From: a virus
Length of the DNA: 20,955 bases
Reading direction: 5' to 3' (one strand)
IMG/VR virus record: IMGVR_UViG_3300006128_000075
Span: 1-20,955 of that record
In this document: positions 11,377-20,955 of the stretch, piece by piece
Layout: every line of letters starts with the position of its first letter
Numbering within the stretch: the stretch's first letter is position 1
Position numbers and translations under genes: made by a program
The notes under the pieces: model-generated
Told to the model about the DNA's origin: nothing
The model's input: only the letters and a program-made list of their open reading frames with translations
The model's database searches: none

Positions 11377-12249
11377 ATGAATCATTATGAAACACTTGGT
11401 GTAAGCGAAAATGTATCTGCTGATGAATTAAAATCAGCATTTAGAAAACTTGCAAAACAACATCACCCAGACATGGGTGGTGATCAAGCAAAATTTCAAC
11501 AAATTAATGAAGCCTATACTACCCTGAGTGATCCTAATAGTCGTGCGCACTATGATCACACATTGCGTAATCCACAACCACAATTTCAAGGTAACCCATT
11601 TGGACAACGTGCTGGAAATCCGTTTGAATTTCATTTTAATTTTGGCGGCGGACCTGACCCAATGTCTGCATTTCATGACCAATTTTTTAATCAATTTGGT
11701 TTTCAAGCTAGACAACAACAGCGTAATCGCAACCTAAGAGTTGCTATAGATTTAGATTTTGCAGAGACTATAAGTGGTGTTAAAAAAGTAATTAACTATC
11801 GTACTACAAATACTAATGAAACCTTAGAAATTGAAATACCAGCAGGTATTGAAAATGGCAACATTTTTACAATACAAGGACGTGGCGACGATGCTAATAT
11901 CTCTATACCTCGTGGTAATCTTGAAATAGTAATAAATGTCAAACCGCATCCTAGATTTATTCGCAGCAATGAAAATATTATTGAAGATTTAACTGTTGAT
12001 TGTTTTCAAGCAATGACAGGAACAGTAATCCCACTTATACTGCCAAGTGGAAAGTTTATCGAACTTAATATACCTGCTGGCACACAAAATAATTCACAAT
12101 TTGGTATTACAGACGAAGGTTTTCCAAGAGGAAACGGAACTCGTGGCAAGTATATTGCAAAAATTAATATTTTAATTCCAACCGCACTTACGCTTGATCA
12201 ACTTAATTTAATTCGAGAAATACAAAACATTAAACCTGTAAATACTTAA
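11377..12249 (+). CDS. DnaJ-like co-chaperone without zinc finger (CbpA type)
   Basis: 290 residues. A complete J-domain spans about 1-65, starting MNHYETLGVSENVS and carrying the HPD motif at residues 30-32 (QHHPDMGG) that triggers DnaK ATP hydrolysis. A Gly/Phe/Asn-rich linker follows (about 66-115), then two beta-sandwich substrate-binding domains (about 118-285). There is no CxxCxGxG zinc region between them, so it is class II, like E. coli CbpA (306 aa). It would work with host DnaK, as no DnaK is seen here. It has its own promoter and lies directly upstream of the ClpA-type unfoldase, which shares the same promoter motif, so the two probably act in one protein-quality or remodelling programme. 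Confidence 0.9.
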   Translation: MNHYETLGVSENVSADELKSAFRKLAKQHHPDMGGDQAKFQQINEAYTTLSDPNSRAHYDHTLRNPQPQFQGNPFGQRAGNPFEFHFNFGGGPDPMSAFHDQFFNQFGFQARQQQRNRNLRVAIDLDFAETISGVKKVINYRTTNTNETLEIEIPAGIENGNIFTIQGRGDDANISIPRGNLEIVINVKPHPRFIRSNENIIEDLTVDCFQAMTGTVIPLILPSGKFIELNIPAGTQNNSQFGITDEGFPRGNGTRGKYIAKINILIPTALTLDQLNLIREIQNIKPVNT

Positions 12250-12289: not shown

Positions 12290-14527
12290 ATGACACAGTT
12301 TAATAACAGCAACGACCTTGATAAAATTGTGCGCATGGCTAAGCAACATGCGGCAGATAACAATCACCAATATTTTACAGTTGAGCATTTACTGCTTAGT
12401 ATGCTTCACGAAAAAGGATTCAAAAAAGTTCTTGAATCTATTGGTATTGATGTATTAGAACTAGTAAATGAATTAGAAGATTACATTGCTAGTAATATTC
12501 CAATTAATAACAAAAGTGAAGAAGAACCTAAAAAAACACAAAGCCTTGAACGAGTGTTTAATCGTGCATTTACCCAAGTAATTTTACTTGGTCGTCAAAA
12601 TATTCATATTACCGATTTATATCTATCTATTAGCAAAGAATCACAAAGTCATGCTGCATTCTTTTTGCGAAAGTATGGAGTTGAACCTGAAAAAGTTGTT
12701 GAAATTTATAATAAGAATAAAAACAAAAAAAGCATCAATTTAGGCAACAATGCACTTGAAGAACATTGCACCAACCTAAATGAAATGGTTCGCAATGGTA
12801 AAGTTGAAGCTGTTATTGGTCGTGGCACTGAACTCGCTGATATGCAGCAAATTCTTGCTCGCAAAAATAAATGCAATGTTTTGCTTGTAGGCGATGCTGG
12901 TGTCGGCAAGACTGCTATTGCCGAGGGTCTTGCATATAATATTGTAAATGGCGATGTTCCGAAATTTTTGAAGGATCATGAGGTTTATAGTCTAAACATT
13001 GGTTCGCTACTTGCAGGAACAAAGTATCGTGGCGACTTTGAAGAAAAGTTGCAAGAGATTATTGCAGCAGCAACTGAACTTGGCAATATTATTTTGTTTA
13101 TTGATGAAGCACATCAAATGCGTGGAGCAGGCAGCGGAAGCAATAGTTCAGTAGATTTCTCAAATATGTTAAAACCAGCACTTGCTCGTGGTGACTTTAA
13201 AGTTATTGCCTCAACCACTTGGGAAGAATATACACAACATTTTGAAAAAGACCGTGCGCTTATGCGACGCTTCAATCGCGTTGCAGTAGATGAACCAAGT
13301 ATAGCAGATTGTAAAACAATTCTTCTTGGTATCAAAGCTAGTTACGAAACTTTTCATGGAGTAAAAATAACAGATGGTGCGATTAGTGAAGCTGTAGAAT
13401 TGAGTGCTCGTTATCAAGCAGATAAGAAACTGCCAGATAAGGCAATTGACCTTATTGATAGTGCTGCAGCATTACGCCGTACCAAGGCACGTGGCTCACG
13501 CACCATTGATGTTGCGCAGATTCGTCGTGAACTAAGTCGTATTACTAAGATTCCAGAAAGTCAATTAGGTGAAGAAAATACGCAAAAGATTATGCCTAAT
13601 ATTGGTGCCGAGATCAAAGCAGTTGTGTATAATCAAGATACTGCAGTTGACAAGGTGTTAGACCGTGTATGGGTATCACAAGCTGGTTTAAAGGCAGATA
13701 ATAAACCTGTTGGTTCGTTCTTGTTTCTTGGTCCTACAGGCACAGGCAAGACTGAACTTGCCAAGCAATTAGCAGATCGTTTAAGTATGAAGTTGCTACG
13801 CTTTGATATGAGTGAATATCAAGAGCGTCATTCTATCTCACGACTTATCGGTGCGCCACCTGGCTATGTTGGATATGAGGATGCTAACCTTGCTGGTGGC
13901 TTGCTCATTAGTGAGATTGCTAAGAACCCACATTGCATCATTCTTTTTGATGAGATAGAAAAGGCACATCCTGATGTATCACAGGTGTTATTGCAAGTTA
14001 TGGATGAAGGTTTTATTACTGGCACCAATGGCAAGCGAGCAGATTGTCGTCAGGCTATCCTTATTATGACAAGTAACTTGGGTGCTGCCGATAGCGAACG
14101 CAATGTCATTGGTTTTGGTGGCGGAACAAATAGCGATGCAGTTGATGCTGCTGTCAAAGAATACTTCCGTCCAGAGTTCCGCAATCGTGTTGATGCGATT
14201 GTTACATTCAATAAACTTGATACCGCTACAATTCGCAAGGTTGCAGAAAAGTTCATTCGTGAACTCAATGAACAACTTGCGTCAAAAAATACATCAGTAT
14301 CTCTCACTGATTCTGCGTGGAATTGGCTGTGTAAGACAGGATATACTCCAAGTCTTGGTGCTAGACCAATGCATCGCACAATTCACGAACACATTAAAGT
14401 TCCGTTAGCAAAGAAAATACTGTTTGACAAGACAGGAAATCATGCTAGTATTAAGGTAGACCTAAATGTTGACAAGTTGGAATTGGTAGCGCAAGATGAA
14501 CGAGATATCAGAACTAACGCTGATTGA
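12290..14527 (+). CDS. clpA: ClpA-type double AAA+ protein unfoldase
   Basis: 745 residues, close to E. coli ClpA (758). The N-domain (about 1-140) carries the HQYFTVEHLLLSML repeat typical of Clp_N. NBD1 has Walker A GDAGVGKT (201-208) and Walker B LFIDEAH (D272/E273). NBD2 has Walker A GPTGTGKT (481-488), Walker B LFDEIEKAH (D554/E555), and the GAPPGYVGY pore loop. The two ATPase domains are joined directly (ITKIPESQLGEE) without the roughly 125-residue coiled-coil M domain of ClpB, so it is ClpA/C-like. IGF at 607-609, in VIGFGGG, lies where ClpA has its IGL/IGF ClpP-docking loop, implying that it can dock onto host ClpP. It may redirect host proteolysis. Its 3' end overlaps the next gene by 32 nt. 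Confidence 0.93.
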   Translation: MTQFNNSNDLDKIVRMAKQHAADNNHQYFTVEHLLLSMLHEKGFKKVLESIGIDVLELVNELEDYIASNIPINNKSEEEPKKTQSLERVFNRAFTQVILLGRQNIHITDLYLSISKESQSHAAFFLRKYGVEPEKVVEIYNKNKNKKSINLGNNALEEHCTNLNEMVRNGKVEAVIGRGTELADMQQILARKNKCNVLLVGDAGVGKTAIAEGLAYNIVNGDVPKFLKDHEVYSLNIGSLLAGTKYRGDFEEKLQEIIAAATELGNIILFIDEAHQMRGAGSGSNSSVDFSNMLKPALARGDFKVIASTTWEEYTQHFEKDRALMRRFNRVAVDEPSIADCKTILLGIKASYETFHGVKITDGAISEAVELSARYQADKKLPDKAIDLIDSAAALRRTKARGSRTIDVAQIRRELSRITKIPESQLGEENTQKIMPNIGAEIKAVVYNQDTAVDKVLDRVWVSQAGLKADNKPVGSFLFLGPTGTGKTELAKQLADRLSMKLLRFDMSEYQERHSISRLIGAPPGYVGYEDANLAGGLLISEIAKNPHCIILFDEIEKAHPDVSQVLLQVMDEGFITGTNGKRADCRQAILIMTSNLGAADSERNVIGFGGGTNSDAVDAAVKEYFRPEFRNRVDAIVTFNKLDTATIRKVAEKFIRELNEQLASKNTSVSLTDSAWNWLCKTGYTPSLGARPMHRTIHEHIKVPLAKKILFDKTGNHASIKVDLNVDKLELVAQDERDIRTNAD

Positions 14528-16979: not shown

Positions 16980-17459
16980 ATGTCTGATGATTTAGAAACA
17001 GTAGAATTTAAAGTTCAATTAAGCAGTTCATGGCATAATGATCCGCCTAAATTTGAAATACTCATCAATGATGATATTGTTGAATCAGGCGAAGTTTCTG
17101 AATTAGAAAGCGATAGCAATGTAAAAACTATCGCTTTTTCCAGAGATTTACCAGAAGGCGACCACACTTTAAAAATCAGACTTGTTAATAAAAAACCCAA
17201 ACATACAGAAGTAGATGATAGTGGTAACATTATTTCTGATCAACTATTACATCTTAAAGAAATTGAACTTGACGAGATTGAATTAGAATGGTTGGCATAT
17301 TTCAACGGTAAATTTTATAAACAAATTGGTGCCAAAAGCGGCAAACCAATTTACGAAGATGAACCACTGCCAGAAAAGTTTAATGTAATTGGTTTAAATG
17401 GTGAGTGGCGTCTTGGTTTTAGTGTGCCCACATATATGTGGTTCCTAGAAAACCTATAA
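16980..17459 (+). CDS. Possible carbohydrate-binding (CBM36/60-like) beta-sandwich protein
   Basis: 159 residues, with AAAGGA 7 nt before the ATG. The first 110 residues fit a calcium-type carbohydrate-binding sandwich: WHNDPPKFEILINDDIV (about 18-34), a central strand pair, then LPEGDHTLKIRLVNK (about 57-71), reminiscent of the 'G.HtV.vrF.ND' strand of xylan-binding modules. The Asp/Glu-rich insert (about 77-88) could bind metal. The C-terminal 50 residues (NGEWRLGFSVPTYMWFLENL in parts: GEWRLGF, TYMWFLENL) are Trp/Phe-rich. The similarity is judged by eye and could reflect a generic Ig-like fold. The position after a glycosyltransferase-like gene favours a sugar-related role. Confidence 0.5.
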   Translation: MSDDLETVEFKVQLSSSWHNDPPKFEILINDDIVESGEVSELESDSNVKTIAFSRDLPEGDHTLKIRLVNKKPKHTEVDDSGNIISDQLLHLKEIELDEIELEWLAYFNGKFYKQIGAKSGKPIYEDEPLPEKFNVIGLNGEWRLGFSVPTYMWFLENL

Positions 17460-17462
17460 ATA
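17455..17462 (+). promoter_or_regulatory. Exact TATAAATA late-type box overlapping a stop codon
   Basis: TATAAATA matches the T4 late promoter consensus exactly and overlaps the stop codon of the upstream gene. A T4-like start, about 6 nt downstream, would fall on the ATG at 17467, and there is no Shine-Dalgarno. It is either a leaderless late promoter or a chance AT-rich match. Confidence 0.35.
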
Positions 17463-17466
17463 TTTG

Positions 17467-18594
17467 ATGTTCATTAATCAGATTATCAGCGAAGCGCCTA
17501 AAGTTGGTCGTGCTTTTCAGCACGTAGAAGACCTTGTTCTCATTGAAGGTAGCATGGGCGCTGAAAAAGCTATTAATCGACTCGCCCAAATTGCAAGCAA
17601 TCCACAAACCGTGCGTTGTAAATGGGATGGCAAACCTCAAGTCTATTGGGGACGTGAGCCAGATGGTAAATTTATTATGGTTGGTCACAATGGTTGGCTA
17701 AAACCAGATGGCAGCGGTAAAAGCCAAAGCCCACAAGAATTAGTACGTTTTATCATGAGCACTGGTAAAGTAGAAGCGGGCAAAGAAGACGAACGCATGC
17801 GGTTTGCCAACGAATACGCAAGTTTATGGTCATTGTTTGAAGCTGCAACTCCACAAGATTTTCGTGGCTATGTATATGGTGATTTGTTGTTTATGCGCAG
17901 ACCACCACTAGAAAATAATGCATATACTTTTACACCAAATAATGTAACATATAGCATACCTGCTTCAACAGAACTTGGGCAACGAATATCAAAAGCAACT
18001 GCAGCAGTCGTAGGACATGCATACTTTCCACAATTTGGCATGGGCGATGACCAACAACAACCTATTGATGATTTTACACCATTTAATAAGTCACAAGGCT
18101 TGATTGTATTGGGTCCGCGATATGCACAGCAGCCTGTTAAGATTGACACTAAGAAATTGCAAGATTTACAAAAATATGTTGCAGCAAATAAAAGCGCAAT
18201 AGATAATTTCTTGAACGATGAGCGCCTCGCTGCTATGAAAATGGCAAGCTTTAAGGGTGTGCTTTATAATTTTAATAATCAAATGGCAAGAGTTGGCAGA
18301 ACAAGTGATCTTGCAAGCGAATTTACAAATTGGATAAGCAGCGGTAGCAAACAAAATGCAACAATGCAGCAGAAGATAAAGGATTGGATTGCGCAAAACC
18401 AAAAAGGGTTTATTGCTACATTTGCAGTTCTTGAGAACCTACGCAATATTAAAAATGCAATCATTGATCAATTAGATAGTGAAGGCGGCGATATACAACA
18501 AACTACCAAGGGACAAAAGGGCGGAGAAGGTTATGTCAATTATGGCGAACCTAACATTAAACTTGTGCCTCGTCATCTCTGGACACCAAATTAA
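17467..18594 (+). CDS. Ligase-fold nucleotidyltransferase (DUF6267-like) with head-packaging leader
   Basis: 375 residues from ATG 17467 (a TTG directly before is in frame). Residues 1-10 (MFINQIISEA) resemble the T4 internal-protein leader, with IISE before A fitting the gp21 protease rule. HVEDLVLIEGSMGAEKAI (19-36) precedes a nucleotidyltransferase core: KWDGKP at 52-57 (motif I KxDG, K52 as candidate nucleotidyl-lysine), GYVYGDLLF at 134-142 (motif III-like), EGYV at 354-357 (motif IV) and IKLVPR at 364-369 (motif V, K365). The family occurs in T4-like phages and I recall it as DUF6267. Likely chemistry is nucleotidyl transfer to a DNA/RNA end or protein; no OB-fold is evident, so it is not a canonical ligase. 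Packaging into the head is inferred. Confidence 0.7.
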   Translation: MFINQIISEAPKVGRAFQHVEDLVLIEGSMGAEKAINRLAQIASNPQTVRCKWDGKPQVYWGREPDGKFIMVGHNGWLKPDGSGKSQSPQELVRFIMSTGKVEAGKEDERMRFANEYASLWSLFEAATPQDFRGYVYGDLLFMRRPPLENNAYTFTPNNVTYSIPASTELGQRISKATAAVVGHAYFPQFGMGDDQQQPIDDFTPFNKSQGLIVLGPRYAQQPVKIDTKKLQDLQKYVAANKSAIDNFLNDERLAAMKMASFKGVLYNFNNQMARVGRTSDLASEFTNWISSGSKQNATMQQKIKDWIAQNQKGFIATFAVLENLRNIKNAIIDQLDSEGGDIQQTTKGQKGGEGYVNYGEPNIKLVPRHLWTPN

Positions 18595-18600
18595 TACCTA

Positions 18601-18639
18601 TTGACATACCAGATAAATATTTTATCTGGATTGTATAAT
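18601..18639 (+). promoter_or_regulatory. Atypical promoter-like elements before the giant reading frame
   Basis: TTGACA at 18601-18606 and TATAAT at 18634-18639, whose last two bases are the first two of the ATG at 18638. The 27-nt spacing is too long for an ordinary sigma70 promoter, so function is uncertain. The two boxes may belong to different signals, with the palindrome between them. Confidence 0.3.
18609..18629 (+). repeat. Perfect 21-bp palindrome upstream of the giant reading frame
   Basis: CCAGATAAA at 18609-18617 and its exact reverse complement TTTATCTGG at 18621-18629 flank a 3-nt TAT. It lies between TTGACA (18601-18606) and TATAAT (18634-18639), where the other promoters of this window have a 16-17 nt spacer; here the gap is 27 nt. 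It could be an operator, an RNA hairpin or a weak terminator of the upstream gene (no T-run follows). Confidence 0.75.
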
Positions 18640-20955
18640 GACCCTAAGCCACCGCACTATCTTTAATGAAGCACCAAATCCTCATGTTGCATTTGCATTT
18701 GGGCGCATGAATCCGCCGCATTTTGGTCACGAAGGGCTTATTAAAACCCTACAAAGTGTAGCAAAAAAAGGCAGTTGGGCGTTATTTCTAAGTAAAAGCC
18801 AAGATGCCAAAAAGAATCCACTTAACTATGAACAAAAAGTTAAATGGGTTAAAGCACTTTATCCACAAACACAAGGACATCTCGTTGAAGAACCATCAAT
18901 CAAAACATTCCTACAAGCAGCCGCATATCTTTATGACAAAGGTTTCCGCAGTGCCACTTTTGTGGCTGGCGAAGACGACATGGCAAGTATGCGACCAGTA
19001 TTGGAACAATACAACGGCAAGCAAGTAACACATGGTTTCTATCATTTTGAGCCGCTTTCTTTTATGGAAAGCCCACGATTAACCTCCGCGACAAATGCAC
19101 GTGAAGCAGCCAAAAGCGGCGATCCAGAAGCATTTGAACGTGCTACACGTGTGCCACCAAATATCACAGTAGATGGCAAGACACTTATGCAAGCAGTTCG
19201 CATTGGTATGGGACTTGGTGAAAGTGTTGAAGAAAGTATCATCACTGAAAGTTTATCAGTAGAACAACTTGCTCACATAAGTGATAAAGCACTTGATGAC
19301 GCTTATCATTATGGGTTATCTACACCTAACAATAACTTTGGTTGGTTGGCAAATATTGAAAGTGCCACTGCTGCAAAGCGTATGATTGATAGTGGCATTA
19401 CAGATGTAGAAGCCATTGCCAACGCTATCCACGATGGTTGGAATAAAACTGCTATGGCTGATTATATGGGCAAGTTGCAGCTAGATACGCCAACCATTCC
19501 CGATAAGAAAAAGAAGCGTTATGCTCTTGCCCAACAAACTTATGCACAGTTGCCAGAAGTAGAAAAAGAAAAAGACCGTGTAGTTGCTCGTGCTATGTTG
19601 AAGGCAATGGGTATCGTTACCGAAGCACCAGGCATTGGTGGCGATTGGGGTGATAATCCTAAACTAGTCAAACGTGGTCGCAAACCATATGAACCCAATA
19701 AGGATGATACCTATTACGGCTCTGCCCACGGCACAGACCTTGATTTATATGGTTTGCCAAAATATGAATTAGATGAAGACCTAACTCCTGACCAATGGGC
19801 AGAGTTGCGCATTACTGATCCAAAAGCCTATATGGGTAATAAGGATTATACTAATCGTCGTTGGTGGACTCTGCAGTTTAAGAAGGCTCGTGCTGCTGCC
19901 CGTGATCAAGGTGCTAATCGTTTTGAGTTTCCGCCAGGTTCTAAGAACAGTTATATGGTTGCTCCTGACTTGGCAAATGAAAATTTAGATGAAGCCGCAG
20001 AAAAATCAACCAAAGCCGAAGCCAAGTATCAGGCAATGCCTCGCAATGGTCAGCGTTGTGATTACTGCACTATGTGGCGTCCTCCGCATGGTTGTTCGGC
20101 TGTTAGTGGCAAGATTGCGGCAAATGGTTGGTGTTCATATTACAAGCGTAGTCATCGTAAAGATTTAGATGAAACTATTGAACCAAATAGCAATATGTTA
20201 GCAATAGCACAACGTCTCGAAGATTATGCTAATGAACATATTCCACACGAAGACGATGGTTTTGGTGATTTTATGTATCACGCAGAACTTATTCGCAAAG
20301 GTCATCTTGACATACATCGTGAAGATATGGTGAAGGTTCAACCACGCTATCTTCCGATTATGAAATCTATCACAAAGAATGAATTAGTATCAGAATCACA
20401 ACTTGACGAAGCAGCATCACCAGTGTTGTTCCATTATACAGGCAGTGTGGGTGCAGCATTAAACATTCTTAAAAACAATGAGTTTATGTTGAGCATTTCT
20501 ACTGGTAGTGTAGAAGACCAATATGCACCACGTGGTTATAACTATTTCTTATCCACAACACGCAGCAAAGTAGGTGGATATCACGAGTTTACTGGCGGCA
20601 CTGCTGTTATGTTCAACCTTGATGGCAATTGGTTCAATCGTCGCTATCCAGTTAAAGCAATTGACTATTGGGCAGGATTTGATAAGCAAAAGCACAGCGA
20701 AAGCGAAGACCGTGTATTCTCACGTGAGCCAACTATACCAGCAGATGCGATTACAGCAGTTCATATCTTACTTAAAGAAGCAGGTGAGTTTGCAAGTCCA
20801 ACTACTCGCCAGTTGATGATTGTAGCAAAGAAGCGTGGATTACCAACCTATCTTTACAGTGATGAAAATGCGTGGAAATTACAGGACACCAAGCGAGCAA
20901 TACCAGTAAGCAAAGCCCAAGATTTAATTCGTGGTCAAAAGAAGACTGGTTATAT
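18638..20955 (+). CDS. Multidomain phage polyprotein: NMNAT-like, RyR-like, HiPIP-like and ART-like domains (runs off right edge)
   Basis: Open from ATG 18638 to the window end with no stop: at least 772 residues, C-terminus missing. Leader 1-11 (MTLSHRTIFNE, then AP) resembles a capsid-targeting leader. Residues 17-200: nucleotidyltransferase with GRMNPPHFGH at 22-31 (HxGH) and SATNAR at 150-155 (NMNAT-like SSTxxR). Residues 255-325: RyR-like, with HDGW at 265-268 and YAQLPEVEKEKDR at 302-314. Residues 330-452: unknown, ending in an Arg/Ala helix and FEFPPGSKNSY. Residues 470-505: HiPIP-like cysteines C474, C477, C486, C499 with GWC. Residues 595-730: ART-like, with FHYTG (H599), YFLSTTRS (636-643) and SESEDRVFS (E688/E690). 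Sites fitting a prohead protease occur after E11, E204, E329, E452, E586 and E591, between the domains. No good ribosome site is visible. Confidence 0.8.
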   Translation, partial: MTLSHRTIFNEAPNPHVAFAFGRMNPPHFGHEGLIKTLQSVAKKGSWALFLSKSQDAKKNPLNYEQKVKWVKALYPQTQGHLVEEPSIKTFLQAAAYLYDKGFRSATFVAGEDDMASMRPVLEQYNGKQVTHGFYHFEPLSFMESPRLTSATNAREAAKSGDPEAFERATRVPPNITVDGKTLMQAVRIGMGLGESVEESIITESLSVEQLAHISDKALDDAYHYGLSTPNNNFGWLANIESATAAKRMIDSGITDVEAIANAIHDGWNKTAMADYMGKLQLDTPTIPDKKKKRYALAQQTYAQLPEVEKEKDRVVARAMLKAMGIVTEAPGIGGDWGDNPKLVKRGRKPYEPNKDDTYYGSAHGTDLDLYGLPKYELDEDLTPDQWAELRITDPKAYMGNKDYTNRRWWTLQFKKARAAARDQGANRFEFPPGSKNSYMVAPDLANENLDEAAEKSTKAEAKYQAMPRNGQRCDYCTMWRPPHGCSAVSGKIAANGWCSYYKRSHRKDLDETIEPNSNMLAIAQRLEDYANEHIPHEDDGFGDFMYHAELIRKGHLDIHREDMVKVQPRYLPIMKSITKNELVSESQLDEAASPVLFHYTGSVGAALNILKNNEFMLSISTGSVEDQYAPRGYNYFLSTTRSKVGGYHEFTGGTAVMFNLDGNWFNRRYPVKAIDYWAGFDKQKHSESEDRVFSREPTIPADAITAVHILLKEAGEFASPTTRQLMIVAKKRGLPTYLYSDENAWKLQDTKRAIPVSKAQDLIRGQKKTGY

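Follow-up and report, generated by a model that had tools for sequence, protein, structure and literature searches.

The window, that is, the whole stretch of DNA analysed, is an IMG/VR virus fragment of 20,955 bases. Its polyprotein gene is an open reading frame of 772 codons (18638..20953, plus strand) that starts at an ATG and stays open up to the end of the contig, where it is truncated; the complete protein of a relative (L017), 94% identical, has 1,050 aa. The claim of the first-pass annotation, made from the sequence alone, that one uninterrupted frame of at least 772 codons is present, thus held. The features of the locus are given below, with predicted cleavage points marked by a slash and CTS standing for capsid-targeting sequence.

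17456..17462, plus strand: ATAAATA late promoter element, 11 nt upstream of the DUF6267 gene
17467..18594, plus strand: DUF6267 protein (PF19782), with a CTS-like leader MFINQIISE/A and a second site LFE/A
18613..18619, plus strand: ATAAATA, T4-type late promoter element, 25 nt upstream of the polyprotein ATG
18638..18670, plus strand: leader MTLSHRTIFNE/A (residues 1-11), resembling a T4 CTS, predicted to be removed after E11; pLDDT below 50
18671..19249, plus strand: NMNAT-like nucleotidyltransferase module (residues 12-204), whose tail carries LGE/S (195), VEE/S (199) and ITE/S (204)
19250..19624, plus strand: RyR-like module (residues 205-329; PF02026, 2.6e-4), C-terminal end VTE/A
19625..19777, plus strand: short segment PGIGGDW..LDE/D (residues 330-380), without known fold, exchanged as a unit in homologues
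19778..19993, plus strand: DLTPDQW..RRWW module (residues 381-452), C-terminal end LDE/A, exchanged as a unit
19994..20173, plus strand: HiPIP-like 4-Cys Fe-S module (residues 453-512; Pfam, PioC), C-terminal end LDE/T
20174..20410, plus strand: helical module of unknown function (residues 513-591), C-terminal end VSE/SQLDE/A, either there or missing as a unit in homologues
20411..20953, plus strand: ART-like module (residues 592-772), incomplete at the contig end (the module of L017 has 287 aa)

The chain had been described as linking NMNAT-, RyR-, HiPIP- and ART-like domains, and these assignments are not equally firm. The NMNAT-like module matches PHROG 3041 (5.9e-36) and, when the segment is searched alone, the Pfam family CTP_transf_like (PF01467; 21.3 bits against a cut-off of 21); the HxGH motif is present as PPHFGHEG, and the top matches of the chain model in the PDB (Foldseek) are NMNATs. 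This assignment, inferred from sequence and fold matches, is solid, while the substrate and the enzymatic activity are not established. The HiPIP assignment is also solid, with PF01355 above the Pfam cut-off and an alignment to PioC that keeps all four cysteines (E-value 5.6e-10). The RyR assignment of the second module is likely, but its score for PF02026 (21.6 bits) is under the curated cut-off of 27.4 bits and the module is therefore called RyR-like only; no match to it was found among cultured phages. The ART module has no Pfam match by sequence search and rests on weak fold matches only, the top PDB matches of its model being the ART-superfamily proteins Tpt1, DarT1, CteC (a Chromobacterium effector) and Pierisin (best probability 0.96, E-value 0.06, TM-score at most 0.41). 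H8-Y9, FLSTTR and ESEDR are invariant in a nine-row alignment of this module, an alignment which alone allows no catalytic assignment. No peptidase domain (Pfam-type searches) and no tail fold were found in any module, and PADLOC gave no defence-family match. The suggestion that NAD chemistry is a common theme was borne out in part: it fits the NMNAT and ART modules only, HiPIP, ParB-like, amidoligase and PGDYG modules lying outside it. NAD chemistry thus remains a possibility raised by two modules, with no established role in the host for any of the modules.

The first-pass annotation had further listed six protease-type sites, FNE/A (residue 11), ITE/S (204), VTE/A (329), LDE/A (452), VSE/S (586) and LDE/A (591), had placed them at the joints and not inside domains, and had proposed a head-packaged polyprotein cut into effectors during capsid maturation. 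Every one of the six positions proved exact. Further strict sites, absent from that list, are LGE/S (195) and VEE/S (199), to which relaxed joint sites, LDE/D (380) and LDE/T (512), can be added. Two more strict matches, also not listed, fall within domains, FME/S (144) in the NMNAT-like module and LKE/A (714) in the ART-like module, so that eight of the ten strict sites are at joints and the claim about their placement held in part. With the strict motif defined as [FILVM]xE/[AS] and expectations derived from composition (4,000 shuffles), the polyprotein contains 10 matches against 1.8 expected, a count that none of the 4,000 shuffles reached. Control motifs occur at about chance level, namely [FILVM]xD[AS] (2 against 1.8) and the reversed motif (1 against 1.9), as does the strict motif in the 57 other ORFs of a sister phage taken together (46 against 44). 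Similar enrichment was found in the gp22-type scaffold of the sister phage (14 against 2.3). One homologous chain of 2,286 aa (L022) shows no overall enrichment (6 against 5.5), as sites are scarce in its long C-terminal half; within residues 600-2286 of that chain two amidoligase-like domains (PF12224, 2.1e-12) are encoded, with few protease-type sites between them.

The linkers are frequently rich in E, A and S and frequently carry two to four sites in tandem, as in VEESIITES and VSESQLDEA. In a full-chain AlphaFold model every joint site falls in coil, and for almost all of them the pLDDT is below 50; therefore a placement of the glutamates inside folded cores, which would have refuted the proposal, is not observed for the joint sites. 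The mean pLDDT of this model is 53.6 and it is poor for the NMNAT-like and HiPIP modules, so it served for linker position only, and the low pLDDT at the joints comes partly from a shallow alignment and is not proof of disorder.

Relatives were sought in viral contigs, where the scan returned 24 loci. A scan of bacterial and archaeal genomes gave no relative of the whole polyprotein, and therefore the host cannot be named. Chains in relatives reach 1,883 aa (L010), at least 2,286 aa (L022) and, for the longest, 2,845 aa on a 338-kb contig (G014). The window chain has at least five modules, and relatives have more; unlike T4 cargo, it is not organised as one domain per gene. The order in homologues is NMNAT, variable modules, HiPIP, variable modules and ART, then frequently a GWILP module and an amidoligase. 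The NMNAT-like module is always first, and almost all chains on contigs of sufficient length contain both HiPIP and ART; L006 and L009 have another module after the RRWW segment, after which the contigs end. The variable modules include RyR, three or four ParB-like domains, a PGDYG domain, an amidoligase and others. In one homologue (L014) the leader is lost and the first 20 residues start with MANNPHIAF. In the same protein, at residues 484-543, a fusion lies within the HiPIP and RRWW modules (RNGQRFEFPPGSK), the product of a recombination not at a joint.

Swap points were defined as the ends of high-identity blocks among 13 homologues, with expectations obtained by circular shifts. A strict site lies within 5 residues of 44 of the 117 swap points, against 12.8 expected, and any hydrophobic-x-E lies near 67 (26 expected), whereas the control hydrophobic-x-D is depleted (13 against 29 expected). 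The p-value of this test is not to be taken literally, the homologues being related, but the control motifs have equal relatedness. The glutamate is kept at nearly every internal joint regardless of the upstream module. Thus the HiPIP module is preceded by ten distinct sequences, each terminated by E (LDE, VNE, VEE, TNE, VKE, VSE, LNE). Some joints have a non-hydrophobic P3 (TNE, ANE), which counts against cutting by gp21.

These patterns bear on a first rival explanation, an ordinary late cytoplasmic multidomain protein whose Glu-rich flexible linkers arose by recombination at short GAA-GCN repeats. In its favour, the linkers are rich in E, A and S, recombination requires short identity, and LxEA could arise in this way. 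Against it, the joints are enriched only in hydrophobic-x-E and not in hydrophobic-x-D, DNA identity does not explain a P3 residue that can be L, I, V, F or M, the gp22 scaffold is equally enriched, and the leader tracks the protease across phages (see below). This explanation is considered very unlikely, and GAA-GCN recombination as the sole cause was rejected, the hydrophobic P3 being left unexplained.

Several modules are also encoded as single proteins with leaders of their own. A scan with the ART-module profile returned 67 loci, most of them single proteins of about 290 aa with leaders such as MRANEFLIE/R, MQINEIITE/S, MNIKEILIE/A, MRATEFIIE/G and similar. The spacing is constant: whether the ART follows a leader or an internal joint, the Glu of a hydrophobic-x-E stands exactly 6 residues ahead of [YF]H in 28 of 28 distinct contexts. 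The P1' residue of many single-protein ARTs is Arg and not of the A/S form, which counts against cutting by gp21. That this glutamate is part of the ART fold was rejected, as the ARTs of gp21-less phages lack it (MKPLYHF, MILYHF, SSVLYHL). HiPIP stands alone as a 67-aa protein of Synechococcus phage S-SRM01 (leader MKSFQEFLFE/E), and NMNAT stands alone in three cyanophages (343-389 aa; MKKFSAFLSE/A, MKTLKFFLE/S, MKKFSDFLSE/A). Where the polyprotein leader itself is present in homologues, it ends in FNE/A, FAE/A or LKE/A.

Arrays of small genes with such leaders were also observed. Alishewanella phage Slickus01 (L132, 1839-8441) has nine adjacent genes, nearly all with MKIDxLYESLLEE/G-like starts and several of them ART-like; they could be separately encoded CTS cargo and perhaps an unfused counterpart of the polyprotein. 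In relatives, genes with CTS leaders are clustered beside the polyprotein. Other groups of small genes whose products begin with CTS-like leaders (MRISEIIVEA, MRASQFISES, MRAAEFVIEA, MKIKDIILEAS) are present in G014 (297068-300048 and 61658-62367) and in G005 (96952-104451); these products, of unknown function, are candidates for injected proteins.

In T4, gp21 cleaves the leaders of internal proteins after L/I-x-E, and ten residues are enough as a CTS for packaging (PMC9026906). The window contig has no gp21, the fragment being too short to show head genes. A gp21 gene (PF03420) is encoded in the 111-kb relative G005, adjoining gp23 and a scaffold-like ORF in which 14 sites occur, and in seven of seven tested relative contigs of at least 117 kb, G014 among them; the loci of G014 and G020, both within these seven, are nearly identical. 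Among cultured phages with the ART, three have both gp21 and the leader (Slickus01, Vibrio K566, SCTP-2) and five have neither a PF03420 match nor the leader (Dickeya JA13, Rhizobium N46, Lu11, Sen-NF, HRDY3). This sample is small and uncorrected for kinship, and PF03420 could miss a diverged protease.

A second rival explanation is a tail or baseplate protein cut by another protease and delivered from outside the head. A late promoter and association with the virion are compatible with it. Against it, the leaders match the T4 CTS, which acts via the head core, and the domain searches found no tail fold in any module; this explanation is very unlikely.

The main rival is a packaged polyvalent protein that is delivered uncut, only the N-terminal leader being removed, with the internal sites as relics of the leaders of fused ancestors. 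Descent accounts for all joint data, packaging without cleavage is known for polyvalent proteins, the N4 virion RNA polymerase being an example (PMC5512222), and single proteins with leaders exist. However, the joint Glu is conserved while its neighbours in the linker and the upstream modules vary, which a relic would not need, the linkers frequently have two to four tandem sites, and gp21-type proteases require very little sequence context (PMC9026906). Uncut delivery is therefore held to be unlikely, if less so than the cytoplasmic and tail explanations.

ATAAATA is the core of the T4 late promoter. In the relative G014, 52 of the 71 copies of this element are at most 60 nt upstream of ORFs, against 2.4 expected, and the genes that follow include structural genes, CTS-leader genes and the polyprotein. 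In the window, the late promoter of the polyprotein sits in a perfect palindrome, CCAGATAAATATTTTATCTGG (= CCAGATAAA-TAT-TTTATCTGG, 18609-18629), just upstream of the start codon; a similar palindrome is present in the 338-kb relative (L066, near 4866). The leader of the neighbouring DUF6267 protein is matched in G014 by MFINQILTE/A next to the polyprotein, and PHROG 455 aligns with both the DUF6267 protein and the NMNAT region. A ClpA/ClpB-like ATPase (12290-14527; PHROG 4871, 7.6e-246) and a DnaJ-like protein (11377-12249) are also encoded in the window.

Virion data exist for single homologues. Virions of S-CBWM1, S-SZBM1, S-SCSM1 and S-CREM2 contained NMNAT-like proteins (PMC10665884, PMC9602691), and those of S-SM1 contained a citidylyltransferase (PMC3037559); according to the authors, carry-over through CsCl purification could not be ruled out. 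These phages differ from the cyanophages whose NMNAT leaders were compared, and none is known to carry the polyprotein.

Taken together, the protein is likely an effector polyprotein of T4-like jumbo phages from lakes, expressed late, packaged in the head and cut at its module joints by gp21, a reading inferred by sequence comparison, in which packaging, cleavage, injection and enzymatic activities are all inferences. What computation shows is the set of modules, an enrichment of the motif that only the scaffold equals, the coincidence of joints and swap points with sites, the joint Glu across unrelated modules, the single forms with CTS leaders, the gp21 and gp23 genes in larger relatives and the T4-type late promoter. 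These tests and the co-occurrence of leader and protease mean that the proposal of a head-packaged, cleaved polyprotein was supported in every comparative test run. Cutting in the head at two or more internal joints is probable on the same comparative grounds, in the absence of proteomics of a polyprotein phage. Besides the P3 and P1' exceptions, the two strict sites within domains, the lack of enrichment in L022 and a window contig without gp21 weigh against this reading.

In the proposed mechanism, the polyprotein would be expressed late, and its leader MTLSHRTIFNE would take the chain into the prohead core formed by the gp22-type scaffold, like the CTS of T4 internal proteins. During head maturation, a gp21-type protease would cleave the linkers after hydrophobic-x-Glu and take off the leader, so that the NMNAT-, RyR-, HiPIP- and ART-like modules would be freed and retained in the head in equal numbers, and would enter the host along with the DNA. 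The probable origin would be a fusion of separate CTS-tagged internal proteins, whose retained cleavage sites may serve as neutral joints for module exchange. A bolder reading, towards which the balance tips only slightly, is a retrovirus-like strategy for injected effectors, in which one leader would target a whole cargo polyprotein to the head and the protease of capsid maturation would divide it into as many as about ten equimolar proteins, with the sites as exchange points for effector modules.

The suggestion that this is a new kind of virion cargo system is too strong, as multidomain polyvalent proteins that are co-injected have been described before, and so have internal proteins tagged with a CTS. 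Polyvalent proteins (Iyer et al. 2017, PMC5512222) are likewise very long and mosaic, with 2-15 domains in which ART and ParB-like effectors are mixed, and are proposed to be co-injected with DNA; the window protein, being multidomain, mosaic among relatives and provided with several known conflict domains, meets the criteria for them. They differ in that a built-in metallopeptidase (common, not universal) or no processing is proposed for them, whereas no peptidase domain was found in the polyprotein, which has gp21-type sites at its joints; sites for a head protease at joints are not described in the pertinent passages of that paper. T4 IPI-IPIII and Alt (PMC9026906, PMC3012670) share with it a leader of about ten residues ending in (L/I)xE, late expression, the gp21/gp22/gp23 genes, cargo that is diverse except for the leader, and an ART as cargo, but they have one protein and one leader per gene (Alt adds a C-terminal cut), whereas the polyprotein has many modules and a site per joint. 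The polyprotein may thus operate like a T4 internal protein, if an untypical, multi-module one, packaging and cleavage by gp21 being unproven. Inner-body proteins of phiKZ and SPN3US, cut by gp175/gp245 (PMC9026906, PMC10052503), are packaged ejection proteins cleaved after x-Glu, some of them multiply; there, however, the multiple cuts fragment propeptides, and the release of several mature effectors is not described. The virion NMNAT/cytidylyltransferase of cyanophages (PMC10665884, PMC9602691, PMC3037559) is homologous to the first module, with a CTS-like leader in cyanophage homologues, but it is a single protein (343-389 aa in three cases) and not part of a polyprotein. A search of open-access literature, subscription journals excluded, returned no paper that joins a prohead protease with cleavage sites in a phage polyprotein or with a cytidylyltransferase. 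The novelty consists in joining the polyvalent and CTS-cargo ideas through a head-protease site per module joint, which is undescribed in the literature searched.

If this reading is true, long polyvalent proteins would have a defined route for being loaded into the head and split, and hydrophobic-x-Glu joints together with a leader and gp21 would provide a signature for genome searches, with exact neo-N-termini predicted for virion proteomics. Furthermore, an Fe-S (HiPIP) module in the head would be an unusual cargo, and small unknown genes that start with a CTS leader, hundreds in number, would become candidate injected effectors.
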